From NCBI RefSeq assembly GCF_900130045.1, contig NZ_FQXT01000001.1, forward strand, positions 601,014 through 665,013: a stretch of DNA of 64,000 bases. Direction: 5' to 3'. Source of the DNA: Leeuwenhoekiella palythoae. Its GTDB lineage: Bacteria; Bacteroidota; Bacteroidia; Flavobacteriales; Flavobacteriaceae. Below the pieces are notes generated by a model, which saw only the letters and a list, made by a program, of their open reading frames with translations, did no database searches and was not told the DNA's origin. The translations under genes and the position numbers were made by a program. This document shows, in pieces, positions 1,831 through 18,772 of the stretch (position 1 is the stretch's first letter; every line of letters begins with the position of its first letter).

Positions 1831-1850
1831 AATTCAGTTTTACATATTCT

Positions 1851-1941: not shown

Positions 1942-1948
1942 TTGTTAT

Positions 1949-2164: not shown

Positions 2165-2310
2165 TTGAATGTCCTTTTCTTCGAATAGGAAGCTTTACAT
2201 TCCATCAATACCCCTCATCCCCAACCCTTCTCCTACAGGAGATGGGAGCTCCTATGCGAGTGAGCTCTCTCCTAACGTCGAGATTACTGATTGTTTTTAA
2301 ATAGAATTAC

Positions 2311-2505
2311 TACTCCTACCCGAAGGGTTAAACGAAACTAAAACTCCCTCGGTTCAGAATAGACGCGGGCAGCTCCGAAGGACAGGAGCGGTAGCGACGC
2401 GGAGCTGATAAGGCGGTTTTTGCCTGATAAGGCAAAAAATTCCTAAGCGTGGGGGTCTTTTCTTTTGATTCGTTTTCTTTGGACAAGCAAAGAAAATGAA
2501 TAAAA
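2311..2505 (+). repeat. Dispersed palindromic repeat, element A, left copy 1
   Basis: The element begins near CCCGAAGGGTT and contains CTCCCTCGGTTCAGAATAGA. An inverted repeat CAGCTCCG...CGGAGCTG follows, then a variable loop (GCCTGATAAGGC). It ends with a hairpin, TTTTCTTTG-GACAAG-CAAAGAAAA. It is nearly identical to 19920-20112, with only a handful of differences over about 180 bases, and is closely related to 3183-3365 and 20445-20600. All copies have the same orientation. No transposase is present, so this looks like a non-autonomous REP- or MITE-like element. Confidence 0.85.
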
Positions 2506-2514
2506 TATTCTATA

Positions 2515-2673
2515 GGAACTAAAATAAGTAAAACGCGTTTAAGCGAACTTTCAAATCAAGAAAAGACCCATCTTCGAGCTGAAGAACTCTACCTCATCGC
2601 CTTGGCCATTGACGTGGATCCCGGGGAGATGTTTATGGAGTTGCATCAAGACCTGAAGTTACCGGAGGAGTAG
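2515..2673 (+). pseudogene. Remnant of an XRE-type regulator (C-terminal part)
   Basis: An open frame ending at the TAG at 2671-2673 encodes KISKTRLSELSNQEKTHLRA, continuing through EELYLIALAIDVDPGEM to LKLPEE. The phrasing (a helix with RLSEL, then a helix with YLIALAIDVDPGEM) resembles the C-terminal half of small XRE-type helix-turn-helix proteins. There is no start codon, and the frame is cut by a TGA at 2497-2499 inside the end of repeat element A. It therefore looks as if the repeat insertion or a recombination removed the 5' half. Family assignment is moderate. Confidence 0.4.
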
Positions 2674-2738
2674 GTTGTATTTCTTATATTCTATCACAAA
2701 AGCTCGATGCTAAGTAGCACCAGTACCACTACTATTCA

Positions 2739-2998
2739 TGTTTCCTTTCTTTTGTCTTGATACAAAAGAAACAATCCCGAAGCTTCGGGTCAAGGCTCAC
2801 AAGACGGTATCTAAATTTATCGTTCACTGCACTGCATGCGCTTAACTCGACCGCTATCGCGGCCTCAAACAGAACCGCTTGCTACGTTACGTTCACTTCA
2901 AATTTCACAATACCTTCTTGTAGGCCGTTTTTAAATTATAGCTAAGAGTTACATTCTTTAGTCTTCCCTCGGTTCAGAATAGATGCAGGAAACTCGGA
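2739..2998 (+). repeat. Dispersed repeat, element B plus partial element A, left copy
   Basis: The copy starts TTTCTTTTGTCTTGATACAA, passes through CTGCACTGCATGCGCTTAACTC and GCCTCAAACAGAACCGC, and runs into TTCCCTCGGTTCAGAATAGA of a truncated element A. The same sequence order occurs at 20228-20470. A 62-codon open frame within it is a by-product of the repeat and not a gene. Confidence 0.75.
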
Positions 2999-3182
2999 TT
3001 AAGTTGGCAGTTACTGTTTTCAGTTTGCAAGAGTTACTACTAGTTTAAGACTATAAGTTATTTATACGCGAAGGGTTTCCAATTCTTTTTCTTCAGTATA
3101 GCAAGAAGGCTCCGTTAAAAATTTTTAAAGCCTTGGGATTTTTAGAATAAAGCCTATAGAGAAAAGATCAAAGAAGAACTAT

Positions 3183-3365
3183 TCATACCCGAAGGGTTAC
3201 ACGTCATCAAAACTCCCTCGGTTCAGAATAGACGCGGGCAGCTCCGAAGGACAGGAGCGGTAGCGACGCGGAGCTGACAAGGCGGTTTTCGCGGTAGCGA
3301 AAAATTCCTAAGCGAGGGGCTCTTTTCTTTTGTTACTTTTCTTTGGAGAGGCAAAGAAAAGTAAG
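3183..3365 (+). repeat. Dispersed palindromic repeat, element A, left copy 2
   Basis: The core is the same as in the 2311-2505 copy, but with a different central loop (CGCGGTAGCG) and the terminal hairpin ACTTTTCTTTG-GAGAGG-CAAAGAAAAGT, an 11-bp perfect stem. This subtype matches 20445-20600 better than 2311-2505, so at least two subtypes coexist on each side of the island. Confidence 0.8.
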
Positions 3366-3496
3366 ATGCATTAATAGTAAGTTACATTGCTCAAAATGAA
3401 GGCATAAGACTCCCTAGCTCTCGTAAACAAAAATTATGCGAGTAAAGTAAGATTACCGGATAGAAATAATCCTCTAAAAATCCTCACGCATTAACC

Positions 3497-4156
3497 CTAA
3501 ACCACCGTATACAAAGTCGTAACGAGCCTACCTTTAACTCCCGGAGCCGGTAGGGATACCAGCTCTTTTGCAGCTTTTACTTTAAAATTAAAAGGAGGTG
3601 CCTGTAGCGCTACACCACTCTTTTTTTTAAGGCGGATGCCTTGCCCGGAAATGATATCGATGTTGGGGGTAAACTCCTGATCGGGCAGGTGCTCGGTAAG
3701 GATCACATAGCGATACGCGTACAGCTTGTTGACAATCGCTTGTATCTCGGCATTGGAAAGGTGTTGCAATACCTGTCGCAGCAAGGCACAATCACCCTCA
3801 GGTAAGGTGTCTTTGGCTATATCTAAGGTGTGAAACATGAGCTGTTTGCTTGTAAACGTCTTTTGGTTGTGCGCGATCAACTCCGGTACAATATCTACGG
3901 CTTTATAGGCTTGGGTGTAGGGCACCAACTCTTTACCGACATTAAAATCACCACAGCCCAGATCACACACCACCGGTGGGGCTTCTAAGTTTTTAAAAAA
4001 GCCAATAACCGCTTTTAGGTAAGCCTGTACCGTCTCGGTATCGTGCGAACCCTCCCCGGAAAAAAAGTCGGTATTCCCGCTACCCCATAGCTTCTTGGCA
4101 TATACCTGCTGCATCGCGTCTTTGGTAGGCCAGGGCGTTTTAGAGCGTTTGGTCAT
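3497..4156 (-). CDS. Class I SAM-dependent methyltransferase
   Basis: This 219-residue protein has a Rossmann-type methyltransferase motif I, VVCDLGCGDFNVG (about 62-74). An acidic strand end at VDIVPELI follows, with a motif-IV-like region CALLRQVLQHLSNAEIQ. The substrate cannot be told from the sequence. There is no DPPY or DNA-binding extension, so a small-molecule or protein substrate is more likely than DNA. The gene stands between the repeat block and the terminus of the defence operon, on the same strand as the operon but separated from it by 173 bases with a hairpin. It therefore need not belong to the defence system. Confidence 0.8.
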   Translation of the reverse strand: MTKRSKTPWPTKDAMQQVYAKKLWGSGNTDFFSGEGSHDTETVQAYLKAVIGFFKNLEAPPVVCDLGCGDFNVGKELVPYTQAYKAVDIVPELIAHNQKTFTSKQLMFHTLDIAKDTLPEGDCALLRQVLQHLSNAEIQAIVNKLYAYRYVILTEHLPDQEFTPNIDIISGQGIRLKKKSGVALQAPPFNFKVKAAKELVSLPAPGVKGRLVTTLYTVV

Positions 4157-4205
4157 TAGTAATCAATTGTTTTTAAAAAGTATTCTTGAACGGGTTGAAA
4201 CCTTT

Positions 4206-4240
4206 AAACCCCTGCGCTGCGTGTTGAGGAGCGGGGTTTT
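4206..4240 (-). terminator. Possible terminator of the defence operon
   Basis: An inverted repeat AAACCCC...GGGGTTT flanks a loop of about 20 bases, about 90 bases downstream of the last defence gene on the minus strand. The T-run on that side is weak, so this may be only a hairpin. Confidence 0.35.
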
Positions 4241-4329
4241 AATAAAATAAACTAGATCATTAAGTTTCACTACTGAGGAGAATTAATTTAACTAGCAAAT
4301 AGAGATTTGAAAAAGTACAAAACAGGCTA

Positions 4330-4989
4330 TTAAAACGTTCTAGATTCAACTTGTTTTAGTAGCTCCAACTTACTCTGTAATTCAATATTCAACTCTACTT
4401 TTTTATTAAATTGTTTTGCTTGCCTCAAGCTTTTTTTTAGACGATCAATCTCATTTTCAAGTCTGTTTATTTCTTTTTCATTCTTAAGTATTAAGCTAAA
4501 AGGCTTTTGATCGAATAGCGGCTTTCCTGTCAATTGGACACACATATTCTTAAATACAGCATCAATACTTTTATTAAGATTAAAAACATAAGTATTTGTG
4601 TCGATATTGAACCAGTGGCAATTAAATCTCCAATCTATCACTGAAATATCATCGCTGTTAGGATGAGAATGTTTTAAGGCAGACGACAAATAAGCTTGCT
4701 GTTTGAATTCAATCCAAAACACAATATGATACGGAATAGCCTTATCGATGATGTCAAGTATCTTAGATATATCAGCTTTTTGCTTTAATTCAACCTTAAA
4801 TACTTGTATTTCTAGTATTTCTTTAGCTTCTAGATTTATTGTCTCTCTAGAAAGTTTGTGCGTCCAAGTAATACGAAGAACTAAATCAGTAAGCAATCTT
4901 TTTTGTTTAGTGCTCGTATACTCATCAAAAGCATTTTTCGGTATAACACGAGCTACTTTTGATTGATTAGGTAAATTAAAAAAATCCAT
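4330..4989 (-). CDS. DUF4391 family protein, last gene of defence operon
   Basis: This 219-residue protein matches the DUF4391 pattern: an early RLLTDLVLRITWTHKLSRET segment (about 31-50), VFKVELKQKAD (about 63-73) and FWIEFKQQAYLS (about 91-102). It ends in a basic coiled coil (about 170-215, NEKEINRLENEIDRLKKSL). DUF4391 proteins are known mostly as neighbours of helicase and type III restriction genes; their biochemical role is unclear to me. Its ATG shares a base with the stop of the upstream helicase gene (TAATG), which implies translational coupling and a joint function. The family call is good; the function is unknown. Confidence 0.8.
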   Translation of the reverse strand: MDFFNLPNQSKVARVIPKNAFDEYTSTKQKRLLTDLVLRITWTHKLSRETINLEAKEILEIQVFKVELKQKADISKILDIIDKAIPYHIVFWIEFKQQAYLSSALKHSHPNSDDISVIDWRFNCHWFNIDTNTYVFNLNKSIDAVFKNMCVQLTGKPLFDQKPFSLILKNEKEINRLENEIDRLKKSLRQAKQFNKKVELNIELQSKLELLKQVESRTF

Positions 4990-7900
4990 TAGCGTACAAT
5001 CAAAAATGATACTAGCTTAAAATCTTCTATTCCCTTAATTTTTTCTTGTAGAGCGGTCGTACCTCCAGATTTGAAAAGACTTAGTACTTCCTTTTCTTCT
5101 TCCTTTTGTAAAACTGTGCGAATACTTTGCTTTAAAAGTTTAGAATAATCATCCATTTTATGATAGTCATCTGTAAGATCAGCTAACTCTTTACACACAT
5201 CTTCAAGGGGCGCCTTTTTACCTTTAGCTAACATTCTCATTGCATCAAGAATCTTCTTGGATTCTACATGATTAAGTATTAACTCCCCATTCATTTTTAT
5301 GTAAACCAAATAATAGGGATGAAGCCTATTTAACTTATTTATATTTACGCTTGTATTCACATTCTTCAAGACAAATATTACACCGTCTTGCAAAATGGAT
5401 CCTGACTTTACAACAGCATGAAGACCTTCAGGTATGTTTTTCAACTCCCCATATTCCTTTATCATATTTGTCAAATCTACTCGAAAGTCATTGAGACCTA
5501 AATCTGTAATACTTACGCCTTCTCTTAAGTCTTCTAAATCAATAACTTCATCTTGAAGCTTCTGAAGCTGTATTTTCCTATATTCTAAATCCTTTTCCTC
5601 TGTATTAAGTATATTGTCATCACCAGTACTCGCCATATTACTAATTAGCATTTTGTTCTCAACACGTTGCTTAAGGTTGATATAATTATCTAGAGTAACA
5701 TCGGGCCAAAAATTAACCATAGTTATACTCTCATTTTTAGATCCAATTCTATCTACCCTACCAAAGCGTTGAATTATACGTACCGGATTCCAGTGAATAT
5801 CATAATTAATCAGATAATCGCAGTCCTGTAAATTTTGCCCTTCAGAAATACAATCGGTAGCAATAAGCAAATCAATAGACTCCTTAATATTTGGGTATAA
5901 TTGTTCTTTATCTTTACTAAGTGGAGAAAAACATGTAAGTATCGCATTAAGATCTGCTGGTATTTGCTTAGAACTGGAGATACGCCTTGAACCAGTAATC
6001 AATGCTACATTTAAATTGTATTTACGCTTTAAATACTCATGAATATTTTCATATAAATAGTTTGCCGTATCGGCAAATGCGGTAAAAATAATAGCCTTTT
6101 TATTATTTGGATTGAATGGTTTTTCAATTTTATGATTGACAAGGGTAATAAGGTGTTGCAATTTAGTATCCTTTTTACCTCTAATATCAACTATTCTATC
6201 CCATAGTTTGCTAAGAATTAAAAGGTCTTCGGTAAGATCTTCACGCCATTTTGTTGTATCCATATCTGCGATATGAACTTTTATTTTTTTGCCTATAACT
6301 TGATCTTCATCTGCCCAATTGGATTCAAAATCATAATTCTCATCATTTAAAATTTTATGAATTCCCTCATAGTCATCGTCTACTCCTTTATCTATAGTTT
6401 TGATAGCTTGTTCAATTTGACCAATAATACCTTCTAAAGTAATTCTAAATGAATCTACGGAACTCTCTAGGCGCTTAAGTAAATTGATGCGCATTAAGAT
6501 ACGAAGACTCAATTCGCGATCTACCTGAGATAGTTTTCCAGATCCCGATCGCACTTCTTTATCATACAAATCCGAATAGGCTTGAACCTTACTTGGTAGT
6601 ATATAATTAAGAGGTGTATAGACTGACAAATTGAGAAGTGTTAGCTTTTCTGCTAGGTCAACATAGGTTATGCTATTCGAACTTGTGAGAGGACTTTGAA
6701 TTGATACCGGTTTATTCCGCTCGGGGAACTTTCCTATTGCAGATGTATCATAATATGTTGTTATATGCTTTCTTGACCGTGCAATGGTCAAAGAATCTAA
6801 GATTTCAAAAAAATCAAAGTCAAGCATATCCAGTAATTTCTCTGTAGTACGCTCCTCCGTTTCATATTTACTCCAAATATTAAAAGCTTGTTGTGCTTTT
6901 CTAAATATTTGATCTATACCACTTTGTGTATCTAACTTTTGATCTATGTTTTCTGAATCTCCTTCATAAGCTAAGGCCAACTGGTTTCGTAAATCATTAA
7001 ATCTATTATTTACCGGAGTAGCCGATAGCATCATAACCTTAGTTTCAATACCTTCTTGAATAACTTTACGCAATAGTTTTTGATAGCGATTCTCCTTACC
7101 TACGACAGTATTATTATTCCTAAAATTATGCGATTCGTCTATAACAATCAGACCATAATTACCCCAGTTAACATTAGCAAGTTCTCGACCATTACTCATT
7201 CCACGCTCCCTGCTTAAGTCTGTATGAAACAATACATCGTATCTAAATCTATCAGCAGCTAAAATGTTGTTTTTATCATTATGACGATAGGTATTCCAGT
7301 TTGCCTCTAACTTTTTGGGACATAACACTAAAACATCTTTATTACGCATCTCGTAATACTTGATGACACCTAATGCTGAAAATGTTTTTCCTAAACCAAC
7401 CGAATCTGCCAAAATACAACCTTTGTATTTTTCTAACTTATTAATAGCACCTATTACAGCATCCTGTTGAAAATTGTAGAGTTTACTCCATACTAAAGTA
7501 TCTTTAAAACCTATTTGCTCATTAGGTAGATTATCTAAGGATAGGTCGTCTAGAAAGTCATTGAAGATATTATAAAGTGTTATAAAGTATATAAATTCTG
7601 GACTATTCTCTTTATATGCGCTTTCAAAATATTGCTGTACTTTCTCCGTTACATCTTTTAAGTCTTCCTCATTTTCCCAAATCTGGTCAAACCAATCTAA
7701 ATAAGCTTTACTATCGGGGTATTCTGATTTTTGAATAAGTGTTGGGAATCCTTTCTTGTGTGTGATTCCAAGGTCGGATGTTGTAAAGCCACTTACATTA
7801 GTATAGGCCTGAGCATTCTTTTCATCCTGCTTTAGATGAATCAACCCATTTAAGGGTTGATTGTTATGCTTATTTGATTTGAATGTAACTTTTTCTTTAA

Positions 7901-8222
7901 CCCATTTTGAGCATTCTTTAGCAATGGCTCTTTGATTAAGCTGATTCATCAGCCTTATTTCAAACTCACCTCCACATAGTTCTGATTCTCTAACAATATG
8001 GGGTATGTAAAACTTTCTGCTTTCTTTCTGAAACTTCTCTTCTATAAAGGTTGGGGAACTAAAAATAAAACGTAACTCATCAACTCTATTTAATTCTTTT
8101 CTCAGTGCCTCAAAAGCATATATAGAAAAGGTTGATGCTGCAATACTGAGCTTACTGCCTTTTTTAATTGAGTCTTTTAAATCATCACCTAAGCGGGTAT
8201 TTACATTGTCAATTAACTTCAT
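4989..8222 (-). CDS. PLD-like/SNF2-family helicase of defence operon
   Basis: This 1077-residue protein is a superfamily 2 SNF2-like translocase. Motif I is LADSVGLGKT (271-280), motif II is DESH (362-365), motif III is SATP (400-403), and motif VI is QRFGRVDRIGS (818-828). Residues about 1-150 resemble the N-terminal phospholipase-D-like domain of this class, with IHLKQ (128-132, H-x-K) and a later SGFTTSDLG that stands where GSSNLT usually occurs. The second HKD half is not obvious, so nuclease activity is uncertain. The middle part (430-700) is a long helical insertion. The gene lies 54 bases after mcrC and overlaps the DUF4391 start by one base. A role in DNA translocation or cleavage during phage restriction is inferred. 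Confidence 0.85.
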   Translation of the reverse strand: MKLIDNVNTRLGDDLKDSIKKGSKLSIAASTFSIYAFEALRKELNRVDELRFIFSSPTFIEEKFQKESRKFYIPHIVRESELCGGEFEIRLMNQLNQRAIAKECSKWVKEKVTFKSNKHNNQPLNGLIHLKQDEKNAQAYTNVSGFTTSDLGITHKKGFPTLIQKSEYPDSKAYLDWFDQIWENEEDLKDVTEKVQQYFESAYKENSPEFIYFITLYNIFNDFLDDLSLDNLPNEQIGFKDTLVWSKLYNFQQDAVIGAINKLEKYKGCILADSVGLGKTFSALGVIKYYEMRNKDVLVLCPKKLEANWNTYRHNDKNNILAADRFRYDVLFHTDLSRERGMSNGRELANVNWGNYGLIVIDESHNFRNNNTVVGKENRYQKLLRKVIQEGIETKVMMLSATPVNNRFNDLRNQLALAYEGDSENIDQKLDTQSGIDQIFRKAQQAFNIWSKYETEERTTEKLLDMLDFDFFEILDSLTIARSRKHITTYYDTSAIGKFPERNKPVSIQSPLTSSNSITYVDLAEKLTLLNLSVYTPLNYILPSKVQAYSDLYDKEVRSGSGKLSQVDRELSLRILMRINLLKRLESSVDSFRITLEGIIGQIEQAIKTIDKGVDDDYEGIHKILNDENYDFESNWADEDQVIGKKIKVHIADMDTTKWREDLTEDLLILSKLWDRIVDIRGKKDTKLQHLITLVNHKIEKPFNPNNKKAIIFTAFADTANYLYENIHEYLKRKYNLNVALITGSRRISSSKQIPADLNAILTCFSPLSKDKEQLYPNIKESIDLLIATDCISEGQNLQDCDYLINYDIHWNPVRIIQRFGRVDRIGSKNESITMVNFWPDVTLDNYINLKQRVENKMLISNMASTGDDNILNTEEKDLEYRKIQLQKLQDEVIDLEDLREGVSITDLGLNDFRVDLTNMIKEYGELKNIPEGLHAVVKSGSILQDGVIFVLKNVNTSVNINKLNRLHPYYLVYIKMNGELILNHVESKKILDAMRMLAKGKKAPLEDVCKELADLTDDYHKMDDYSKLLKQSIRTVLQKEEEKEVLSLFKSGGTTALQEKIKGIEDFKLVSFLIVR

Positions 8223-8276
8223 TTAATTATTCCAGTTTTTCAAAATCGATCGTGCCTCTACCGATTATTTAATTAT

Positions 8277-9536
8277 TTATGCAAATTGCCACCAATTACT
8301 AATGTTTTTATGTATTGCTTTTTGCCATGCCTTCACGTCTTTTTCAACTCCAATCGAGATAACGCTGCATTCCTCATTGCTCAAATTCCTTGACTCCTGA
8401 GAGCTATGGTCATAATATTGCCCTGATTGGTTTCTGTTTTCTGCCCCTGGATATACTAGAGCTACTTTTTTTGCTCCAAAGTATTTCGTGTACACAAACA
8501 TTTGCCTCAAATCTTCCGGGGATGGATTATAGCCATTCAAGTTTTTCCATTTAGTATCAAGTACTACACAATCTTGTCTGCCTTTATTAAGAACAATGTC
8601 GGGTTTCATTTTACTGCGAAAGCCTGATAGTGGCTTCCAAAAGTTCTTTGTGTTTTGAGCAGCAATACTCGTAGTACTTGCTTTATACCTTCTTAAACTT
8701 ACATATACAAACTGTTCCCAAAGCACATTCATATCAAACATCAGTGCCAATACATTATTGGTGCCTCGGTTTACATCTGGGTGATAGTTGAGTAGAATGA
8801 GTTTGGCTATTTCCAGTGCATTCTTGTATGGTTCCGTTTTTCGATCAAGGAAAATTCTATCAAATAAGGTTTCTGTTATTTTAATGTCGTATAACTCTGG
8901 GAAATTCAACAATAAGGCTCCCAGTCTGCTATTTAATTGCACGTTGATATTGATATAGCTCAATAGCTTCAAGGCTTTATAAAGAATTGCATGTATGCCA
9001 TGTTCTTTGTCGTAAGTTGTGTACCTTACATAAAATTGTTCTGGATGCACCAGATTCTGACTGACTTGCTTGGAAAACTGAATACTGCCTTTTAAAGCGG
9101 TTCTATTGCCTTCTGTTTTTCGGTATTTTTTCACTAAACCTCTATGCAACAGATATTCAACTTCCTTGATGAAAAGTTCAAAATAAAGGTCAAGAATAGA
9201 GTTTGGACGCAATCTTAAATTACTGTTGCTTGGAGCATGAATATCAAATATTCCAACTGCATACAGCATGCTAATTAAAACGTTTCTCCACCTTTCTGCG
9301 TCATTGGATCTATCAGCTTTTGGCAATACTTCTATAACCGTTTTAGCAACTTGAATCACACCAACATATTCATTAAAACGAACGCCGTGATGGATCAACG
9401 AGTAATAAGGAACACCATTTTCTCCATAGAACAATTGTAAAGCTTCTAGCTGATCATTTGAAAGCCTTTGCTCGCCTCGGTCTGTACGAAGGCTCTCGTG
9501 TTCAAATACGATGATATGCTTATTCTCTTTACTCAA
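8277..9536 (-). CDS. mcrC: McrC-like nuclease subunit of modification-dependent restriction
   Basis: This 419-residue protein has the McrC layout: an N-terminal beta-rich domain (about 1-95) and a C-terminal PD-(D/E)xK nuclease with KPDIVL (D313) and VVLDTKWK (D327, K329). These are followed by the helix PEDLRQMFVYTKYF. In known McrBC, McrC supplies the nuclease and stimulates McrB GTPase. The start is unusual: the frame opens with TTG at 9536 right after the mcrB stop TGA (9539-9537), in the same frame. The next in-frame Met is near residue 90, inside conserved sequence. The choice is therefore TTG re-initiation or readthrough; I annotate TTG. Function is inferred from family. Confidence 0.88.
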   Translation of the reverse strand: MSKENKHIIVFEHESLRTDRGEQRLSNDQLEALQLFYGENGVPYYSLIHHGVRFNEYVGVIQVAKTVIEVLPKADRSNDAERWRNVLISMLYAVGIFDIHAPSNSNLRLRPNSILDLYFELFIKEVEYLLHRGLVKKYRKTEGNRTALKGSIQFSKQVSQNLVHPEQFYVRYTTYDKEHGIHAILYKALKLLSYININVQLNSRLGALLLNFPELYDIKITETLFDRIFLDRKTEPYKNALEIAKLILLNYHPDVNRGTNNVLALMFDMNVLWEQFVYVSLRRYKASTTSIAAQNTKNFWKPLSGFRSKMKPDIVLNKGRQDCVVLDTKWKNLNGYNPSPEDLRQMFVYTKYFGAKKVALVYPGAENRNQSGQYYDHSSQESRNLSNEECSVISIGVEKDVKAWQKAIHKNISNWWQFA

Positions 9537-12125
9537 TCACTTGTTTTTACGTTGTAGTTCATTCAAAGCCTTGATAAACAGCTCATCACTTAAGTCTTGG
9601 ATGTTTTTGAGATGATAAACTTTCCTTTCTACCAAAGGGCTGCTATCATAATCTTCAAACGGAGCAAAAAAGTCTTCATCTACCTGATTGTCTTTGATAT
9701 CAAAAAATTCAGAGCCAATCACCAACCCAATTTTACCATAATCACCAAAGAAGTATTCCTGTAGTAAAGGCACTATCTTGTTTTGAAAAACCGATTTCAA
9801 GCCTTTTAATCCTTCTACCGATAGCAAATAACTATGACCAATCATGTGGTCTTTGTCCAATAGTTTCTCGATACGCTTATTTATGGTTTCTAAGAGGACT
9901 GAAAGTTCTATACCGTTTAAAATACCATTTTCAGCCCTACCTTCTGTGTTAATGAGTTCCGGTTTTGGAGGCATTTCAGTAAAGCTGAACCTTCTTCTAA
10001 GAGCTGTATCCAATGCTTCTACACTTCGGTCTGCAGTATTCATGGTTCCTATAATGTGAACATTCGGAGGTACTCCAAACCAATCTTTGCTGTATGGCAA
10101 TTGTACTTGAATTGCTTCCGGATTACCTAACCGCTTATCTTCCTCTATAAGAGTGATTAGTTCACCGAAAATCTGCGATACATTTCCTCTGTTTATTTCG
10201 TCAATGATAAGTACATACGGTTCTCCAGTTTTTCCTTTGAAATTTTCCTTTTTCAAAGATTTTACTACTTGTACTTTATCGTCCCAAGAGTATTTTCTAA
10301 TCTCTTTTGGCGTCTCTTTAGTAACTGGGTTATTGTTTCTGATAGCATTCAGCACAGACCAATTTGCTGTGGAATTACTACCCCCAATGATAGACCTAAA
10401 TTGTTGGTCGATATTGTTTACATCGGCTAAATCAGGAAATGCTGTATGCAGCTTTGAAAGTCTTTGTTTAGAAACAGGATAAATATTGTCTTTTCCCGGA
10501 TGTTTAATGATGATATTGCCCTGCTGAGAAATACCATCAACAACTACTTTACCTCTATTTTTGGTTGCTAGCTCAATCGTTTCTTCTGAAGCTAATTTTT
10601 CTTCTAACTCTTGAACAAAGTTGTCAAAAGCTAATGAGAAGTCAAGTACATTTTCTGTGGCAACGGATTCTTCCTCTTTGGCTAATGAAAAGGAGGCTTC
10701 AATACATAGCTTTCTAAAAATCCCTTCTACCACACGGTAAATCACCGGATCACCTTCTTTTTCAGGCTCAATCGGCTTGATACCTTCTACAAAGTCTTCA
10801 TAAGTCATACTCTGATGAAAAGTAGTAAAAATGATTCTACCGTCATCTACCTTTTGCTCAAAACGTGCTTTGATATCAGAACGACTTAATCCGGTTAAAT
10901 TTTCACCACAAAGCTCTAAAGCTTGATTAATGGTGTTGTATGTTTTTCCGGTACCTGGAGGACCATAAAGTATCTGATTTAGTTCATTGGCCATTTTATC
11001 AGAATTTTGTTCAGTTGCTATATTGTGATCTTCTGGTAAGGTCTTTATTTGATCTTCTGCTAAGGTTTTTATTGGAGATAAATTATCCTGCCTAGGAGGG
11101 GAACATTTATAGAAATTAAATTCTTCAACAGATATTGGTTTGATTTTTTCTATTCCTTCAGCAACAAAAACAATCTTAGCAGATTTTTTTTCATCTCTAT
11201 ATTCTGAAAAATCAGAATTAAAATTTTTTAATGAAATGTTTTGAGATTGAATTTTATCAAGCTCCTCTTGGTTAGTGGCAAAGTCTGTAATGTTTGCACA
11301 ATAAACCGCGTTACCTTTGACGCTATAAAAAAGAGGGAAGAAGCCTGTATCTTCAATTTTATCTCTTAAGAATTCTAAAACCTTAGCTCCCCTAGTCGGC
11401 TTTTTACTGTTCCATAGTATTAATCCAGCCCATTGCTTATCTAATATAAGCTCTCTCTCTTGCCAGCCTGTACTATCTGATGCCATTAGACCAACTACAT
11501 CATCTTGCCATTTATCTTTTATTGAGTATATAATGCATGATAATAGATATGTATAGTTATCTTGATTTTTTACAGAGATATTGCATTGCTCAAAATAGGC
11601 TTTTAATTCTTCTACAAATTGTTCTGAATTAAAAGATTTTACAAACAGATTCTCCGAAATCATCTCACGATGATTTCTACTTAAAATAGTTGAATTTTCT
11701 TGAGGTAAGAGAAGGTAATTCAAAGCATTTAAAATTGAAGCACCTTTAATTTCACCATTTTTAAACTTTGTTCTAATTAATCCCTCTATCCATTTGTTCA
11801 TTCTTACACTTGCTTTAGCAAGAACTCTGTTGTCATCATATTGATTAAGTAGATTCTTATCACGAGCATTAGAATCACAATAGGAAATAATCTCACAAAG
11901 CAGATTTTTGATTTTCTTAAAATTAGGATTTGATTCTGCTATTTCTAAAAACTGGTTATAATTAGTAGAATATTTTATAAGCGATTCTTTCAACTCACTT
12001 TCTACATCCATTTCTATCCATTTCTTTAAAGCATCTTGTCCTTTTTGAAAATAAAATTCTTCGGAGGCGATCAAACCTTGCATCCAAGGGGTCTGTATTA
12101 GACTATTTATTTCTTCTTTATTCAT
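9537..12125 (-). CDS. mcrB: McrB-like AAA+ GTPase/ATPase motor
   Basis: This 862-residue protein has a C-terminal AAA+ domain of the McrB clade. Walker A is GPPGTGKT (388-395), Walker B is YVLIIDEINRG (637-647), the McrB signature is MNTADR (695-700), and ALRRRF (708-713) holds the arginine-finger candidates. A long insertion (about 475-620) lies between the Walker motifs. The N-terminal 340 residues should read the target. They are helical at first, then a beta-rich stretch (about 230-340, WAGLILWNS...AVYCANITDF) could be a modified-base reader, though I cannot name its fold. McrB forms a hexamer with McrC to translocate and cut modified DNA. It lies 74 bases after res, with mcrC immediately following in frame. 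Confidence 0.9.
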   Translation of the reverse strand: MNKEEINSLIQTPWMQGLIASEEFYFQKGQDALKKWIEMDVESELKESLIKYSTNYNQFLEIAESNPNFKKIKNLLCEIISYCDSNARDKNLLNQYDDNRVLAKASVRMNKWIEGLIRTKFKNGEIKGASILNALNYLLLPQENSTILSRNHREMISENLFVKSFNSEQFVEELKAYFEQCNISVKNQDNYTYLLSCIIYSIKDKWQDDVVGLMASDSTGWQERELILDKQWAGLILWNSKKPTRGAKVLEFLRDKIEDTGFFPLFYSVKGNAVYCANITDFATNQEELDKIQSQNISLKNFNSDFSEYRDEKKSAKIVFVAEGIEKIKPISVEEFNFYKCSPPRQDNLSPIKTLAEDQIKTLPEDHNIATEQNSDKMANELNQILYGPPGTGKTYNTINQALELCGENLTGLSRSDIKARFEQKVDDGRIIFTTFHQSMTYEDFVEGIKPIEPEKEGDPVIYRVVEGIFRKLCIEASFSLAKEEESVATENVLDFSLAFDNFVQELEEKLASEETIELATKNRGKVVVDGISQQGNIIIKHPGKDNIYPVSKQRLSKLHTAFPDLADVNNIDQQFRSIIGGSNSTANWSVLNAIRNNNPVTKETPKEIRKYSWDDKVQVVKSLKKENFKGKTGEPYVLIIDEINRGNVSQIFGELITLIEEDKRLGNPEAIQVQLPYSKDWFGVPPNVHIIGTMNTADRSVEALDTALRRRFSFTEMPPKPELINTEGRAENGILNGIELSVLLETINKRIEKLLDKDHMIGHSYLLSVEGLKGLKSVFQNKIVPLLQEYFFGDYGKIGLVIGSEFFDIKDNQVDEDFFAPFEDYDSSPLVERKVYHLKNIQDLSDELFIKALNELQRKNK

Positions 12126-12199
12126 TCTTAACTCTATAATTATCCCTTTTCAATAAAGTTCATTTATTCTTTACAATAGTTAATATGTCTTTTATTTTA

Positions 12200-15100
12200 T
12201 CAACTCAATTGCACAATATCCATTAATTTCTCGTAGCTACTTACCTTCTCAAACTTTACCTCAGCACCACTGATCTCTTTAAAATGCTCTGTCGCACAAT
12301 GGATTTTTAGCTTCTCTATTTCTCTTAGGTCCATATCAGAATCAGATCCTTTAGTCTCTGCTACAAAGTAGATATGGCGCACTTTGTCTCTATCAAAAAC
12401 TATTGCCCAATCAGGACTATAGTTAGCTACTGGTGTGCTTACATAAAAGCTCTTTGGCAACTTAGCGTACACCACTACCTCTGTACTGTTTTCTAATGCA
12501 GTAGCAAAGTCTGATTCGATTTTAGAATCAGAAGTAAGAAAATCATAGATATGCTTCTTAAGTAAATCCGATTGGCGTAAAGCTGATTTGTCATTGGTAA
12601 AAACCGTTTTAGCATCGTGTCGCTCTTCGGTTTTATGATATACTATATTGTTTATAATCAAGCTCGCTTTAACCTCATTAATTAACTTGCTGCATTTCCC
12701 AATAAACTCTTCAGGATTCTTGCGTATTAATGCAAATTTAGTTGGTGCTATTTTCTTAAGTATTGCTACTATGGTTTTACGCGTTAGATTGGTTTGAACT
12801 TCAATTTCACCTACGATATCATAAACCGTATCGGCATACAAATCATTCTTAAGCTTCATATACTGGCGTTTAGACTCACGGACTAAGCTACCTTCTTTCA
12901 TTTGTCCAGCACTGCCATCTTCTAATTCCCCTGTCTTTACCTCATAAACGCGATCGCCAATATTGAGTTGTGCATCTATTTTTATTTTAGCATCCTGAAT
13001 AAGCTGTTCTGTATCAAACTGTACTTCATAAATAGTTTTAAGATTGATTTTCTCCCAAAGTGCCTGAAATTCTTTTTTAGCAAAATTCTTGTTAGGGTTG
13101 AGTACCACAGTTTGACGCTCATCTTCAGGTTTAAATTCGGCACCTGTATAAATGGTCTGTAGGAGCTTGCAGACAGATTCTTTAAAGGGTTCAAGCTTTT
13201 CGGGCAGAGGGACTTTACCTTGTTCAATCAGTTCTTTGCCTTTAGGAGTAATCTTGTAATCTTCGTCTATGATTTCACTAACAATGAGTTTGAACTGTAG
13301 CTTCTTTGCATCATCTTCTGTTAATCGTAATTCCTCATCTTGTTCGTTGGTAACAAGCTTGCTCACAAAGTAATCTACTTCTGCTTTTTGTGGTCTTTCT
13401 TTGAGTGTATCGGCTATCTCCTTTTGTAAGCCTTTAGCAAATGCTTCATAGCTTTCTGATGCTATGACTGTAAGCTTATTCAACTCGTGGACCCGGTCGC
13501 CTACGAAATCAAAATCCTGACGAACACCTCGTTTATCAACAGCTAAGCGCATACCACGACCTACTTCCTGACGGCGCCTCGTTAAGCTACCACTTTCGGC
13601 ATGCTTTAATGCACAGATTTGAAAAACGTTAGGATTATCCCATCCTTCTTTAAGTGCAGAGTGCGAAAAGATAAAACGCGTAGGTTCTTCAAAACTCAAC
13701 AGGCGTTCTTTGTCTTTCATTATTAAATCGTAAGCAGAAACATCGTCTGACCATTCACGCCCGCGTTTAACTTTAGAATCAACAGTTCTCCCTTTTTTGT
13801 CTATAGAAAAATACCCGTTATGCACCTTACTTGCATCATCACGCTTAAGATATTCTCCATAATTTGTAGGCATATAGCCTTTATGAACCTTACTTGGATC
13901 GGTATCTTTTAAAAAGTCATTATATTCTTGTTCAAAGAGGTCTAAGAATTCGTTTTTAACCTTATTGTATTCTTCCTCAAACAAACGTGCGTATTCCCCT
14001 ATTTGCTGTTCTCCTAACTCATCGTATACTCTGTACTTCTCTACGGTATCTATAAAAAATAAAGAGAGTACTTTAATACCCTGACCAAAGAGTTGTTTTT
14101 CCTTTTGCAAGTGTGAAAGTATACATTCGCGTATTTGCACTCTTCGGAAAGCGTGCTCATCCTTGTCATTTAGAATATCACCAGGATAAACATCTTCCCC
14201 GGCAACTACAATTTTATTAAGATAGCCGTTTATTTCAGTTATCGTTTGATTTTTGTAAGCAGGCATATTGCCAGACTGCTCATAAATATTATATCCCTCA
14301 GCTACCTTTACCCGTTTTTTAGAAATCGCGCCAGAAGCAGTTCGCTTCTCATGCTCTATAACAGCATAAGGTGGTTTTGAAGTACTAAGACTAATACTTT
14401 CTAAATACAAATATCCGTTAGTCCCTGTAGAGCCTTTTAGATTTATTCCTTTTACCTGTATTTTTTTTACCAAACGTTTATTGTAAGCGTCTAAAGCATC
14501 AAGACGGTAAACCTTGTTATATTCATCTTTATGTGTAGCTGAATAACGTAGCGTAAAAAGTGGTCTAAAGTCTTGCATACTCTCCAACGTCTTTTTACCA
14601 TCTACAGACTGTGGTTCATCAATGATTAAGATAGGGTTGGTTTGGGCAATGATCTCAATAGGCTTACGAGTACCAAACTGGTCTAACTCCTGATAAATAC
14701 GCCTTGCATCTTTACCTCGTGCATTAAATGCCTGAGTATTGATAATCATGACACTTATACGACTATCAGAAGCAAAATTCTCAATATCCTGCGGCCGGCT
14801 GGAGTCATAGATAAACGGATTGATTTTATGCCCAAAGCGTTCCTGAAAATGGTCCTGTGTTACCTCAAAAGACTTAAATACCCCTTCACGAATGGCGATA
14901 CTTGGTACAATCACAATAAACTTACTCCACCCATACTTTTTATGCAACTCGTACATAGTACGAATATAGGTATAGGTTTTACCGGTACCAGTCTCCATTT
15001 CTATGGTGAGGTTGTACCCCAATTTTACGCCTTTAGGGCGTTCAATCTTTTGACTTTCGTGTAGGTTATTATGCTTCTGTACTTCTTGTATGTTTTTAAG

Positions 15101-15328
15101 CACTTGAGACTCCATAATCTGGATGGAGGCATTACGATAACCAATCTCTTCTTCTACGTCAAAATTTAAAGTGCCTAAACCAGTAGCTGCTTGTTTAGCC
15201 TTACGTAGGAGTTCTTTACTACGCTCTAAGGTAAATCGATTGGTTTTAAGGGGTTGCCCCTCAAAACTAGCTACTACAGCCTGAACCGCATTGACCTGAA
15301 AGTCTTGTTCTTTAAACTGTAGTTTCAT
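12200..15328 (-). CDS. res: Type III restriction enzyme Res subunit
   Basis: This 1042-residue protein is a superfamily 2 helicase of the type III Res class. Motif I is METGTGKT (111-118). Motif II is IIDEPQ, motif III is RYSATH, and motif VI is QEVGRGMRLAV. The C-terminal PD-(D/E)xK nuclease is visible as SPDWAIVF (D973) and FVAETKGSD (E991, K993). Res works with Mod to cut unmodified DNA after ATP-driven communication between sites. It begins one base after the mod stop (TAA T ATG), so the two are translated as a unit. The length is in the usual range, and no missing motif was seen. Confidence 0.93.
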   Translation of the reverse strand: MKLQFKEQDFQVNAVQAVVASFEGQPLKTNRFTLERSKELLRKAKQAATGLGTLNFDVEEEIGYRNASIQIMESQVLKNIQEVQKHNNLHESQKIERPKGVKLGYNLTIEMETGTGKTYTYIRTMYELHKKYGWSKFIVIVPSIAIREGVFKSFEVTQDHFQERFGHKINPFIYDSSRPQDIENFASDSRISVMIINTQAFNARGKDARRIYQELDQFGTRKPIEIIAQTNPILIIDEPQSVDGKKTLESMQDFRPLFTLRYSATHKDEYNKVYRLDALDAYNKRLVKKIQVKGINLKGSTGTNGYLYLESISLSTSKPPYAVIEHEKRTASGAISKKRVKVAEGYNIYEQSGNMPAYKNQTITEINGYLNKIVVAGEDVYPGDILNDKDEHAFRRVQIRECILSHLQKEKQLFGQGIKVLSLFFIDTVEKYRVYDELGEQQIGEYARLFEEEYNKVKNEFLDLFEQEYNDFLKDTDPSKVHKGYMPTNYGEYLKRDDASKVHNGYFSIDKKGRTVDSKVKRGREWSDDVSAYDLIMKDKERLLSFEEPTRFIFSHSALKEGWDNPNVFQICALKHAESGSLTRRRQEVGRGMRLAVDKRGVRQDFDFVGDRVHELNKLTVIASESYEAFAKGLQKEIADTLKERPQKAEVDYFVSKLVTNEQDEELRLTEDDAKKLQFKLIVSEIIDEDYKITPKGKELIEQGKVPLPEKLEPFKESVCKLLQTIYTGAEFKPEDERQTVVLNPNKNFAKKEFQALWEKINLKTIYEVQFDTEQLIQDAKIKIDAQLNIGDRVYEVKTGELEDGSAGQMKEGSLVRESKRQYMKLKNDLYADTVYDIVGEIEVQTNLTRKTIVAILKKIAPTKFALIRKNPEEFIGKCSKLINEVKASLIINNIVYHKTEERHDAKTVFTNDKSALRQSDLLKKHIYDFLTSDSKIESDFATALENSTEVVVYAKLPKSFYVSTPVANYSPDWAIVFDRDKVRHIYFVAETKGSDSDMDLREIEKLKIHCATEHFKEISGAEVKFEKVSSYEKLMDIVQLS

Positions 15329-15329
15329 A

Positions 15330-17186
15330 TTAAATCACTTTCATTTCAGTTTCAGGACTTAGCTGCTTAAATAGCTGCTTTACATTGGTTTTTGCTGTAT
15401 CGTTCTTAAAGCCACTATCCCTAAATACAATACGCATTGGTTTATCCTCAGCAATGGCTTTAGCAAAGTCTTCATCTATATCACTATCAAAACAAGCATA
15501 GAGCGAGTTTTCCGCTACCTTAAAGACTTTCTTGCCTGATACATCTACGGGCGTGATTTTGAGTGATAGGGCTAAGCCCCAATCTAACATCACCTGCGCC
15601 AATAAATCCTCTGCGGTACGATCTGACTTTACATTATCTGCAAAAGCATCTAATTGACCTTGATCATAATCTTGTGGCTTGTAATAGACATCTTGCATGT
15701 TGCTGCTGTCTAAGCGATAAACACGGAAGCCATAGTCTATATCGGAATTGGTTTCTTCTTTGATTTTCTTGGCTGCTCTGCGAATGCGTTCCTTACCTAT
15801 TTCGCATATATTCTTGTAACCTGCTTTGTAGGCTTCACTTTTTTCATCCGTTTCTTCAGGAAGTTGAACCTGAATAAAACTCACTCTTTCTTGGTTTTCA
15901 GCATTCCACGAATAGACCGTGTGGGCTAAGCTTCCTGAACCTGAAAAGAAGTCTAAAACAGTAGAGTCTTCATCCAAATTCGCAACTTGAAGTATTCTCG
16001 ATAAAAGCCTTACTGGTTTTGGTCCGTCAAAATATCCTTTATCATCAAATAGCTTTTTTACTTCTTGTCTGCCTTCCTGATTATGACCAACTTCTTTGTA
16101 AGGCCAAATTGAAATGGGAACCATACCTGTTTGAACTTCAGAAAGGAAACGTTTTAACCGAGGAACATTATTTCCATCCTTACCAAACCAAATTCTGTTA
16201 TCATCAATGAGCTTTTGCATCCGCTCTTTACTCGTGAACCAACACCTACCATCGGTAGGAGACACCATTCTTCCTGAAGGCGTTTTAATTTCATAGTCGT
16301 AAGCGGCACTGTAAGTCTTTACAGTTAGGTTGTCTGAAGTCCAAGGTCCCCTTGGATCATCATCCATATTCTTGTATCTTGAATTGGCTTCTTCACTTCT
16401 TTCAAGCTTCCCTATTTCAAATTCAAGTATGTTCTTGGTAAACACTAATATGTGGTCATGACTATCTGAAAAATACTTAGCATCATTTTTAGGAGCGAAT
16501 GCTCTTTCCCAAATTACATTCGCAATGAAGTTGCTATCACCGAAAATTTCATCGCAAACTCTTTTTAAGTTGTGAACTTCATTATCGTCAATTGAGATAA
16601 AAATTACTCCATCATTCGAAAGTAAATTCCTGGCTAACTTCAGTCTAGGATACATCATGCTTAACCAATCGGAATGGTAACGTCCTGCAGTTTCTGGGTT
16701 GGCTACCAAGCGTTGGTTGTATTCGTCTTTTTGTCCGCTTTCTATAAGTTCTTCCTGGGCGTCTTTACTAAAGTTGTCTTTATACACAAAGTCTTTACCT
16801 GTATTGTAAGGCGGGTCTATGTAGATCATCTTAATCTTACCCAAGTAGCTTTCTTGCAGTAGCTTGAGCACTTCTAAGTTGTCGCCTTCTATGTAGAGGT
16901 TTTGTGTATTATCAAAATCAACAGAGTCTTCTCTTACTGGGCGCAAGGTTTTGGTAGTGGGTAGGTTGGCGGTTACTATGGCTTCTCGTTTCCCTGGCCA
17001 CTCTAAACGGTAACGTTCTTTATTACCTTCTATCACGGCATGGCTTAGCTCTTGCTTGAGCAGGTCAAAATCTATAGCCCTACCCTCTGCGCCTTCAGTA
17101 ACGCAATTGGGAAAAAGAGCTGCAAGTTTATCAAAGTTTTCATTTACCCGGTCCGGTGATTGGAGGTCTAATTTATCTATTGGCAT
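15330..17186 (-). CDS. mod: Type III DNA methyltransferase Mod subunit
   Basis: This 618-residue protein is a beta-class amino-methyltransferase. The catalytic motif DPPYNTG (124-130) comes before the SAM motif VLDFFSGSGS (410-419). Between them a variable region (about 210-400) serves as target recognition domain. The flanks are conserved: an N-terminal NLYIEGDNLEVLKLLQESY and a C-terminal dimer or Res contact region. Type III Mods methylate adenine N6 on one strand of an asymmetric site, and the DPPY motif fits. It is the first gene of the operon. A candidate -7 box (CTAAAGTA read on plus, 17222-17229) and a palindrome lie upstream. The recognition sequence cannot be deduced. Confidence 0.93.
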   Translation of the reverse strand: MPIDKLDLQSPDRVNENFDKLAALFPNCVTEGAEGRAIDFDLLKQELSHAVIEGNKERYRLEWPGKREAIVTANLPTTKTLRPVREDSVDFDNTQNLYIEGDNLEVLKLLQESYLGKIKMIYIDPPYNTGKDFVYKDNFSKDAQEELIESGQKDEYNQRLVANPETAGRYHSDWLSMMYPRLKLARNLLSNDGVIFISIDDNEVHNLKRVCDEIFGDSNFIANVIWERAFAPKNDAKYFSDSHDHILVFTKNILEFEIGKLERSEEANSRYKNMDDDPRGPWTSDNLTVKTYSAAYDYEIKTPSGRMVSPTDGRCWFTSKERMQKLIDDNRIWFGKDGNNVPRLKRFLSEVQTGMVPISIWPYKEVGHNQEGRQEVKKLFDDKGYFDGPKPVRLLSRILQVANLDEDSTVLDFFSGSGSLAHTVYSWNAENQERVSFIQVQLPEETDEKSEAYKAGYKNICEIGKERIRRAAKKIKEETNSDIDYGFRVYRLDSSNMQDVYYKPQDYDQGQLDAFADNVKSDRTAEDLLAQVMLDWGLALSLKITPVDVSGKKVFKVAENSLYACFDSDIDEDFAKAIAEDKPMRIVFRDSGFKNDTAKTNVKQLFKQLSPETEMKVI

Positions 17187-17221
17187 AAAATATGGTGTGT
17201 TCGTAGCAAGTGATCTCTAAG

Positions 17222-17260
17222 CTAAAGTACTAGCTCTTTATGGCTATTTTCCAAAAATAG
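17222..17260 (-). promoter_or_regulatory. Candidate promoter and palindrome for the defence operon
   Basis: On the minus strand TACTTTAG (17229-17222) resembles the flavobacterial -7 box TAnnTTTG. About 22 bases upstream is a TTG (17254-17252) embedded in a perfect inverted repeat, CTATTTT-CCA-AAAATAG (17244-17260). This would place an operator over the -33 region of the mod promoter. No regulator gene is inside the operon. Confidence 0.4.
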
Positions 17261-17281
17261 GAAGCTTACTCTTAAAAACAT

Positions 17282-17494
17282 CTAGTATTGTTTAAAATAT
17301 AGAAATGGTTTGTTTAATATTTTTATTTCAATTTTAGGTTTACTGTTCGTTTTCTCTTGTATCACTTCTCTAAAATATTCCAGAATCATTACCATCGCAA
17401 GGGTGTCGAGTTCGCAATAGCGTAGGAGTCCGTTTTCTAGTTCTTGGCATTTGAGGAGGTCTTCTCCAAATATATTATTTCACGAAATACTTCT
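17282..17494 (-). pseudogene. Remnant of a DUF2779-family protein (C-terminus)
   Basis: Read on the minus strand, the frame ending at TAG (17284-17282) gives KCQELENGLLRYCELDTLAM, then VMILEYF. LLRYCELDTLAMVMI is a hallmark of the C-terminal nuclease-like region of DUF2779 proteins, which are large and often linked to Cas4/RecB-type domains. Only about 70 codons survive and no start remains. The remnant lies directly upstream of mod, at the edge of the defence island, so it is probably debris of an earlier gene displaced when the island arrived. Confidence 0.55.
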
Positions 17495-17614
17495 AATGCG
17501 GATTTCCGTATTCCCACTAAAAAGGTGGAAAATACCCGCTATTGGGGATGGTGAAACGACTGTAAAAAAAGTACTTTATGACACGGAATTAACTAACCAT
17601 CCAATACCTGTATT
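17495..17614. other. Upstream region of the 385-residue gene
   Basis: It holds a near-palindrome AATGCGGATTTCCGTATT (17496-17513) with one mismatch pair, and CCCACTAAAAAGGTGG (17514-17529). Neither is assigned. Confidence 0.3.
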
Positions 17615-18772
17615 ATGAGAACATTTAGGATACTCCTGCTGATACCCCTTTTAAGTTATGCTCAGAATCAAGCCCCTAGAGCCCTAATCGATAAAGCTTT
17701 GCTAGACTATGAATCTGAAATCACCGGCTCCCAATTTGTAAACGACAAAACATTAAATATTCTTATAGGTGACGTTTTAAACCAATACCTTCCCAATACT
17801 AAAATCTCTACGCAACGCTTAAGCTTCCTATTAGACGATGATGATAATTCATTTAGCTTAACCGGAAACTTTGATCCTAGACTTACGAAAACCAGTTATC
17901 AAAGCTTTTTAGCTTCAGGAGGTCTAAAATTGAAAGGGGAACCTACTGGATCCTTTTATAACTTTAAAGATTCCAATTGGGCAGAAAACATAGGTGCTCA
18001 ATTCAAACTAACCTGGTTTATACCGGGTACGCTTACTAAAAACGCTGATCACCAAATAAGTCGGCTTTTAAAAACCTATAGAGAAAAGACTATAAAAAAT
18101 CTGGCGCTCGAAACTTTAGAAACCAAGCCTTTAGACTCCCAGGAATTGGAAGAATTAATAGCAACCAAAGAGGCTGAATATATTCTTAAAAATGATTTAT
18201 ACGTATCCATGTATAAATTTTGGGTAACCCTGCAAGGTTATATTCCGCTTACCAAAAGCAGTAACACCTTTACAAACACAACAGATGCAAGTATCAAATC
18301 TGAACATCAGTTTGAGGCCTGGGAGGCTTCACTTAGTATAAATGGATTTTATAAGGGTAAAATCTTTTCGTTTAGTTTTTCAGCCATTCCTCGTGTTTAC
18401 CAAAACAACAACATTCTAACGGAGACGGTTAAAAAACGCACTTTTACCTCTTTTGAGGGGTCTCCCGAAGGACAACCTGCGCTTACCACTACAGACAGCT
18501 ATTATTACGGAGCGTATGAAGAGTTTACCTCCGGGCAGGTAAAAGCAGAAGTTGCATCGCTCTATAAAGATTGTATAGGATTGAGTGCTGCCGTGGAACA
18601 GAACTTTTGGTATGGTTATGATGCGCTCAACTGGAAATTAGGCATCCCCTTAAATCTAAAAAACAAAGATGGAGCATCAAGCATCGCCTTTGAAATCCAA
18701 TGGCGTGAATTCAATAAACAACATTACCTCGGCATAAGTCTAGGTAAAGCATTTGGCAAATTTTTAGATTAA
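17615..18772 (+). CDS. Predicted exported protein, possibly outer-membrane associated
   Basis: This 385-residue protein begins with a short signal peptide (MRTFRILLLIPLLSYAQ, cleavage after about residue 16). The rest alternates short amphipathic stretches rich in aromatic residues and Gly/Ser, for example ISTQRLSFLL, GAQFKLTWFIPG, KFWVTLQGYIPL, FSFSFSAIPRVY, LNWKLGIPLNL and IAFEIQWREF. This is the pattern of a small beta-barrel with a helical linker (about 150-195). I recognise no named family. It stands alone between the defence island and the repeat block, transcribed opposite to the island. A porin-like or surface role is only a guess. Confidence 0.55.
   Translation: MRTFRILLLIPLLSYAQNQAPRALIDKALLDYESEITGSQFVNDKTLNILIGDVLNQYLPNTKISTQRLSFLLDDDDNSFSLTGNFDPRLTKTSYQSFLASGGLKLKGEPTGSFYNFKDSNWAENIGAQFKLTWFIPGTLTKNADHQISRLLKTYREKTIKNLALETLETKPLDSQELEELIATKEAEYILKNDLYVSMYKFWVTLQGYIPLTKSSNTFTNTTDASIKSEHQFEAWEASLSINGFYKGKIFSFSFSAIPRVYQNNNILTETVKKRTFTSFEGSPEGQPALTTTDSYYYGAYEEFTSGQVKAEVASLYKDCIGLSAAVEQNFWYGYDALNWKLGIPLNLKNKDGASSIAFEIQWREFNKQHYLGISLGKAFGKFLD

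Follow-up and report, generated by a model that had tools for sequence, protein, structure and literature searches.

A type III restriction-modification operon with SNF2 and DUF4391 genes and an exchangeable McrBC cassette in Leeuwenhoekiella palythoae

Type IV enzymes in methylation-based defence

One theme that recurs in work on bacterial defence is the lodging of type IV enzymes in or beside systems that depend on DNA methylation. Complementary layers of defence have been demonstrated for BREX with BrxU (PMC8565348) and for a type I system with the embedded GmrSD-type pair TgvAB (PMC11411939). The immigration control region of E. coli joins a type I system to mcrBC, mrr or gmrSD (PMC12707154), a survey of BREX counts GmrSD among the auxiliary effectors (PMC12839542), and McrBC is said to be frequently associated with type I systems (PMC11090510). 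A comparable arrangement lies in a 64,000-nucleotide stretch of the Leeuwenhoekiella palythoae genome (contig NZ_FQXT01000001.1, positions 601,014 to 665,013; hereafter the window, in whose numbering positions are given), where McrBC is found in a type III operon that also encodes an SNF2-family protein and a DUF4391 protein. As far as the published accounts cited here go, the difference from BREX/BrxU, type I/TgvAB and the E. coli region is that the host is a type III system with SNF2 and DUF4391, and that a single position in it receives several unrelated enzymes. This operon is best described as a four-gene core with an exchangeable McrBC cassette, and not as a new six-part system.

SNF2-type helicases have been noted in other operons of this general kind. 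An archaeal operon consisting of a COG1743 methyltransferase, DUF499, an SWI2/SNF2 helicase and a nuclease was predicted to be a restriction system (PMC7641849). It shares with the present operon an SNF2 helicase with a PLDc or PD-(D/E)xK nuclease part in a methyltransferase operon, but the available text of that report names no Mod/Res pair or DUF4391, and the PLD-like part found here is without the HKD motif. On a Lactococcus plasmid, a PLD-SNF2 protein adjoins a protein with a target recognition domain (PMC6098607).

The remaining genes have familiar counterparts. With classical type III restriction-modification the operon shares Mod, in which DPPY precedes FSGSG, and Res, which joins a superfamily 2 (SF2) motor to a PD-ETK nuclease; with McrBC it shares the NTAD GTPase and a McrC with PF10117 and PD..DTK, and differs in that these lie inside a type III operon. 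To our knowledge, classical type III systems have no near-constant SNF2 and DUF4391 proteins, unlike this operon, and in the open-licence literature no paper was found that describes the SNF2-DUF4391-Mod-Res core or a role for either of these two proteins within it.

The core operon and its cargo

The operon (4330-17186) consists of six intact genes on the minus strand, which the listing of open reading frames (ORFs) places in the order Mod-Res-McrB-McrC-SNF2-DUF4391. In transcription order they are spaced by 1, 74, 0 and 54 bases, followed by a one-base overlap between the SNF2 and DUF4391 genes. This is exactly the layout claimed in a first-pass annotation made from the letters of the window, and the intact motifs it ascribed to Mod, Res, McrB, McrC and the SNF2 protein were all recovered in the translations. 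Mod (15330-17186; 618 amino acids) is a type III DNA methyltransferase matching Pfam N6_N4_Mtase (4.2e-33) and PADLOC MTase_III (8.3e-246), with DPPY and then FSGSG. As in type III systems generally, it adjoins a restriction subunit with an SF2 motor and a PD-(D/E)xK nuclease, here Res (12200-15328; 1042 amino acids), which bears ETGTGKT and PDW..ETK and matches Pfam ResIII (9.2e-14) and RE_endonuc (5e-34) as well as PADLOC REase_III (1.2e-290). McrB (9537-12125; 862 amino acids; Pfam AAA_5, 4.5e-16) has GPPGTGKT and MNTADR, the Nx(x)D signature of an AAA+ GTPase in its NTAD (NxxD) form, and a sequence search against solved structures returned 6ut3 (1.7e-58) and 6ut5 (5.5e-58), both labelled "GTPase subunit of restriction endonuclease". 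McrC (8277-9536; 419 amino acids, TTG start; Pfam McrBC PF10117, 2.5e-57) is the PD-(D/E)xK nuclease subunit and shows PD..DTK. A gap of 54 bases (8223-8276) leads from this cassette to the SNF2 gene (4989-8222; 1077 amino acids; SNF2-rel_dom 3.7e-11, Helicase_C 3.8e-16), and the DUF4391 gene (4330-4989; 219 amino acids; Pfam PF14335, 2e-48) ends the operon. Sequence comparison of the DUF4391 protein with solved structures gave nothing convincing, the sole match being to a mitochondrial ATPase inhibitor at E 0.81.

The SNF2 protein had been labelled PLD-type in the first-pass annotation, and this label was not sustained. PADLOC family C3a139 ("HKD+Snf2") covers nearly the whole protein (residues 2-1076, 4.2e-118), yet the HKD motif is absent here. 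Across an alignment of 48 proteins (the window's own and 47 of the 76 relatives of suitable length), GLGKT, DESH and QRFGR are identical in every member, HxK(x4)D is found in none of the N-terminal regions and any HxK in 10; Pfam detected no PLD domain in the window's protein at E 0.01. Identity as a PLD (HKD) nuclease was rejected on these counts. Because the degenerate PLD-like N-terminus is without a catalytic motif, a nuclease there is unlikely, and from its motifs the protein is most likely a translocase rather than a nuclease.

The core is a widespread operon, though sparse by genome survey. A genome scan with the SNF2 alignment supplied 581 relatives, of which the best 80 were taken. 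Loci reached up to about 10 kb per side, many of them ending at contig edges, and ORFs were called mechanically; cargo is undercounted because of the short flanks and contig edges. Among these best 80, SNF2, DUF4391, Mod and Res all lie on one strand in 63, the order SNF2-DUF4391-Mod-Res occurs in 51, and the window's order, Mod-Res-SNF2-DUF4391, in nine (eight plus locus L101, discussed below). Of the 58 SNF2 loci flanked on each side by 7.5 kb or more, 55 have both Mod and Res, and in six of the 58 DUF4391 went unrecognised by blastp. The core is on plasmids in all four records examined, E. coli and Citrobacter plasmids among them, and complete on 37 of 74 viral contigs examined. At phylum level PF14335 appeared in 19 of 296 genomes (17 above cut-off), and SNF2 relatives at E 1e-100 turned up in 8 of 395 genomes at class level and 9 of 397 at family level, the window's own genome being counted each time. 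On the Citrobacter plasmid (L097:9096-10001), and in some other loci, a WYL-domain gene stands directly upstream of the SNF2 gene and could be a regulator of the core. Several operons have at least two Mod-like genes (L190:3028-6741; L183:489-2378 and 7574-9418; L196:6392-16000), which suggests stacked or switchable specificities.

The first-pass annotation had allowed that the six genes might be only neighbours if their order were never conserved elsewhere. That order was looked for in other genomes, and it recurs exactly in one of the 80 loci, L101 from Muricauda sp. ARW1Y1, so that this refuting condition falls away. DNA matches between the two operons run at 80-81% from the start of Mod to inside DUF4391, and no match exists in the 728 bases upstream or the ~9.3 kb downstream of the L101 operon; recurrence of the order with unmatched flanks is more than chance would give. 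Two internal stretches are unmatched at the DNA level, the centre of Mod (15878-16575, minus strand), flanked on both sides by DNA at 80-81%, and the N-terminus of McrB (10997-12125, minus strand). Compared in blocks of 50 residues, Mod falls to 19-42% amino acid identity in blocks 201-450 and stands at 84-96% on both sides, and McrB is at 17-38% in blocks 1-350 and at 66-100% from residue 401 onward. Most remaining blocks exceed 80%, and DUF4391 is 60% identical overall. The divergent parts are those in which we would expect target recognition to reside, presumably a target recognition domain in Mod and a region recognising modified DNA in McrB.

McrBC itself is a rare passenger, present in 4 of 188 operons; the earlier claim of one composite six-gene system is not supported, and an obligate six-gene system was rejected. 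Nor does it always occupy the same place: in L113 (Marinicella) McrBC overlaps the end of DUF4391 by one base, and in L261, a viral contig, it starts 12 bases past Res. The four operon copies occupy three positions in the McrB tree (window with L101, L113, and L261), and three changes are required there even if only well-supported branches are counted; the McrC tree likewise needs three changes for the four copies, two of them forced. Because the McrB types of L113 and L261 are distant in the tree, McrBC appears to have been recruited separately, and at least three recruitments into the core operon are likely rather than proven.

The history of the cassette is also unlike that of the core. The SNF2 tree pairs L101 with L102, which has AAA_13 in place of McrBC, at 99/95 and leaves the window outside, and the Res tree pairs L101 with L103, where the position is empty, at 99/98. 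At four-fold sites, window and L101 have an identity of 0.67 in McrB and 0.66 in McrC, against 0.33 in SNF2, 0.47 in Res and 0.48 in Mod (pooled, 141/213 for the cassette versus 231/550 for the core; Fisher p 2e-9). The intergenic stretches beside the cassette are dissimilar between the two operons. The nearest relative of the window's Mod is the one in L117, at 88% over 1741 bases of DNA and 92% in amino acids (65% for the L101 Mod), and the cargo of L117 is GmrSD plus a MotA/ExbB-type gene. An operon whose parts have such different histories is a mosaic, and the discordant trees, together with a Mod nearest to that of a GmrSD-bearing operon, indicate that parts have been exchanged between related operons. 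The cassettes of the window and L101 may derive from one old insertion, from later exchange, or from two insertions of related cassettes. In L117 the MotA/ExbB-type gene and two small genes lie between Mod and Res (1755-4911), where a further system may be nested; the trio is reminiscent of Zorya.

What precedes the SNF2 gene was tabulated for 20 operons, the window and 19 loci of our choosing with SNF2 after Mod/Res; L110 (contig edge) and L091 and L182 (copies of L197 and L102) were set aside. The gene just before SNF2 is Res itself in seven, 4-13 bases away (that of L236 being a contig-edge piece), McrC in two, GmrSD in three, AAA_13 in two and Mrr in one; the rest have AAA_15 (one), AlbA_2 (two), a second Mod (one) and a 1054-amino-acid protein (one). 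This last protein (L107:6850-10014) belongs to no confident Pfam family, and the AAA_13 proteins in this position we take to be RloC/PrrC-like.

In a count of 188 operons, whose cargo came to 262 ORFs of 150 amino acids or more, a type IV enzyme occurs in 25 (GmrSD 17, McrBC 4, Mrr 4) and, after grouping of 189 entries at 90% SNF2 identity, in 22 of 148 groups. Type IV genes make up 27 of the 262 cargo ORFs, against 7 of the 1239 remaining non-core ORFs of these loci, an enrichment biased upward because the cargo itself was the source of the GmrSD and Mrr profiles. Cargo families were assigned partly by cluster membership, with one AlbA_2 protein scanned singly and the GmrSD, Mrr and AAA_13 sets as tallies (GmrSD_N in 17 of 19 GmrSD-like ORFs, Mrr_cat in 4 of 4); 85 of the 91 singleton cargo ORFs of at least 240 amino acids were also scanned. 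AlbA_2 forms the largest single cargo cluster; of its 21 ORFs, 11 lie between Mod and Res.

The chromosomal site

The surroundings of the operon also bear on its mobility. To the left, DNA shared with a congener (G1023) at 88-96% identity extends over 2188-4253, so that the left edge of the replaced segment is at about 4253. Its right edge is marked by the residual 3' end of a DUF2779 gene (17361-17451, minus strand), a short match only (89% DNA identity over 91 bases and 90% amino acid identity over 30 residues, against L286) to a gene that is whole in the congener. The segment between those edges is occupied in G1023 by a type I system whose genes encode HsdM, a GmrSD_N protein, HsdS and HsdR. 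If the operon moves as a block, one would expect to find it, as here, where a congener holds another system. Near the corresponding chromosomal gene, G1024 has McrBC between type I genes, and G955 has McrBC relatives within a few kilobases. The stretches from G777, G1028 and G1025 hold no relative of the window's McrBC, GmrSD not having been sought there, and G1023 contains no match to the window gene at 17615. Congener type I systems with a nested GmrSD_N gene or McrBC were seen at L286:3879-13221 and L287:4058-13907.

Base composition agrees with this picture. In 2-kb steps, the content of guanine plus cytosine is 33-39% from 4001 to 18000, 43-50% leftward and 38-47% rightward, exceeding 41% in 16 of the 23 steps right of the operon; this pattern fits acquisition from elsewhere. 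The operon is flanked on either side by two copies of a repeat of ~80-190 bases (2303-2496, 3172-3360, 19919-20111 and 20448-20598). A 34-base part of it has 11 matches in the genome at up to three mismatches, five of them in or just left of the first 21 kb of the window. The repeat might aid recombination at the site.

Several candidates met during the analysis were set aside. The claim that the locus does not correspond to DISARM or BREX stands for the six operon proteins, which were the scope of the PADLOC scan (25 of the 38 family matches of the SNF2 protein were listed). Of DISARM (DrmA, DrmB, DrmC and a methyltransferase), these six proteins give only partial SNF2 matches to DrmD and DrmA, that to DrmD scoring 154.9 bits over part of the protein against an NCBI cut-off of 610; for BREX, no match to PglZ or BrxC is among the matches listed. 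CoCoNuT membership was rejected on the GTPase motif: CoCoNuTs, RNA-targeting type IV systems with coiled-coil partners, lie on the NxD branch and MNTADR is NxxD, groups that are kept apart in the published classification, as far as its available text goes (PMC11090510). Phase variation of mod through simple repeats was rejected, no array being listed within 15330-17186, and no known RNA family reaches its gathering score in the window.

Probable layered restriction and its alternatives

The gene content and motifs, the near-constant core, the recurring type IV cargo, the differing histories of the parts and the changing tenants of the site are probably best accounted for by a horizontally moving, modular defence operon, in which a type III core and an exchangeable, modification-dependent McrBC provide layered restriction. 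Layering against unmodified and foreign-modified DNA had already been proposed in the first-pass annotation and is kept here as the best reading. Judged from sequence, Mod would methylate an asymmetric site on host DNA, and Res, with Mod, would translocate on unmarked DNA and then cut it. The SNF2 and DUF4391 proteins would serve this type III subgroup as dedicated accessory subunits and probably provide a further DNA translocase or remodeller, whose target would be either the Mod-Res complex or bound phage proteins. The variable N-terminus of McrB would read a foreign base modification and McrC would cut following GTP-driven translocation, so that phage DNA modified to escape the type III enzyme would become a substrate of McrBC. 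The centre of Mod, the N-terminus of McrB and the whole cassette would be swapped by recombination among related operons, and the six genes are presumed to be co-transcribed.

A number of observations weigh against this reading. McrBC is in so few operons, and 163 of the 188 have no type IV enzyme in the available stretch, which makes layering optional. The contrast in type IV enrichment counts related operons more than once, in addition to relying on cargo-built profiles. A survey of the phylum found 46 genomes with a McrB match, and in none of the 20 loci fetched did core genes lie near these best McrB relatives; McrBC was likewise in none of the 20 fetched DUF4391 loci. L113 and L261 are long-branched in the McrB tree, and the residues of McrB before 603 have no Pfam domain match. 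A McrB that read N6-methyladenine would clash with the usual type III mark. Finally, three weak minus-strand sigma-70-like sites overlap the gaps (12222-12194, 12153-12124 and 8292-8264).

Those sites and the variability of the locus, which is held by other systems in congeners, could be cited in favour of the genes simply sharing a defence island, functionally and operonically unlinked. Sigma-70-like sites are no commoner in the region than chance (37, compared with 46.4 in shuffles), neither the 74-base nor the 54-base gap has a terminator-like hairpin (all five minus-strand terminator-like sites are inside coding regions), and a Bacteroidota-type promoter pattern was not found in either gap. 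A chance neighbourhood is made unlikely by the close spacing (0-74 bases, one strand), by L101, where these six genes stand between different flanks, and by the many genomes in which type IV genes are repeatedly lodged within the core operon or immediately adjacent to it. The six genes are a real unit and more than neighbours: on one strand, in the same order elsewhere, and standing where a congener has another system, they bear out the earlier claim of a single unidirectional unit.

Tight spacing, and the presence of all six genes in a second genome with unmatched flanks and with McrBC between Res and SNF2 in both, might instead point to one integrated six-protein machine in which the SNF2 translocase is common to type III and McrBC. 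Such a machine is quite improbable, since most operons hold the core without McrBC, the history of McrBC is unlike that of the core, McrBC is at the operon end in L113 and L261, and McrB and Res bear motor motifs of their own. It is very doubtful, too, that McrBC serves as a guard, stabilising the operon by killing the cell upon entry of a foreign methyltransferase or replacement of the type III system. McrBC reportedly mediates cell death upon genome methylation (PMC2614495), and the AAA_13 proteins occupy the same position in two operons, but nothing was seen that ties a McrBC response to loss or change of Mod, and the mix of GmrSD, Mrr and McrBC fits direct restriction equally well.

The operon extends the nesting of type IV enzymes, published for type I and BREX loci, to type III, and suggests that such enzymes have been recruited separately and more than once into operons of one kind. 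It also draws attention to the SNF2 and DUF4391 proteins as near-constant companions of this type III subgroup, whose core is experimentally accessible through the plasmid copies in E. coli and Citrobacter. One may tentatively go further, with less conviction, and imagine that SNF2, DUF4391, Mod and Res form a distinct type III subtype of four components, as yet unnamed, that depends on the SNF2/DUF4391 pair for restriction and whose operon is a scaffold whose preferred insertion positions swap type IV enzymes and AAA_13/OLD-like proteins. If so, one mobile unit would cover unmodified DNA, modified DNA and the inhibition of restriction.

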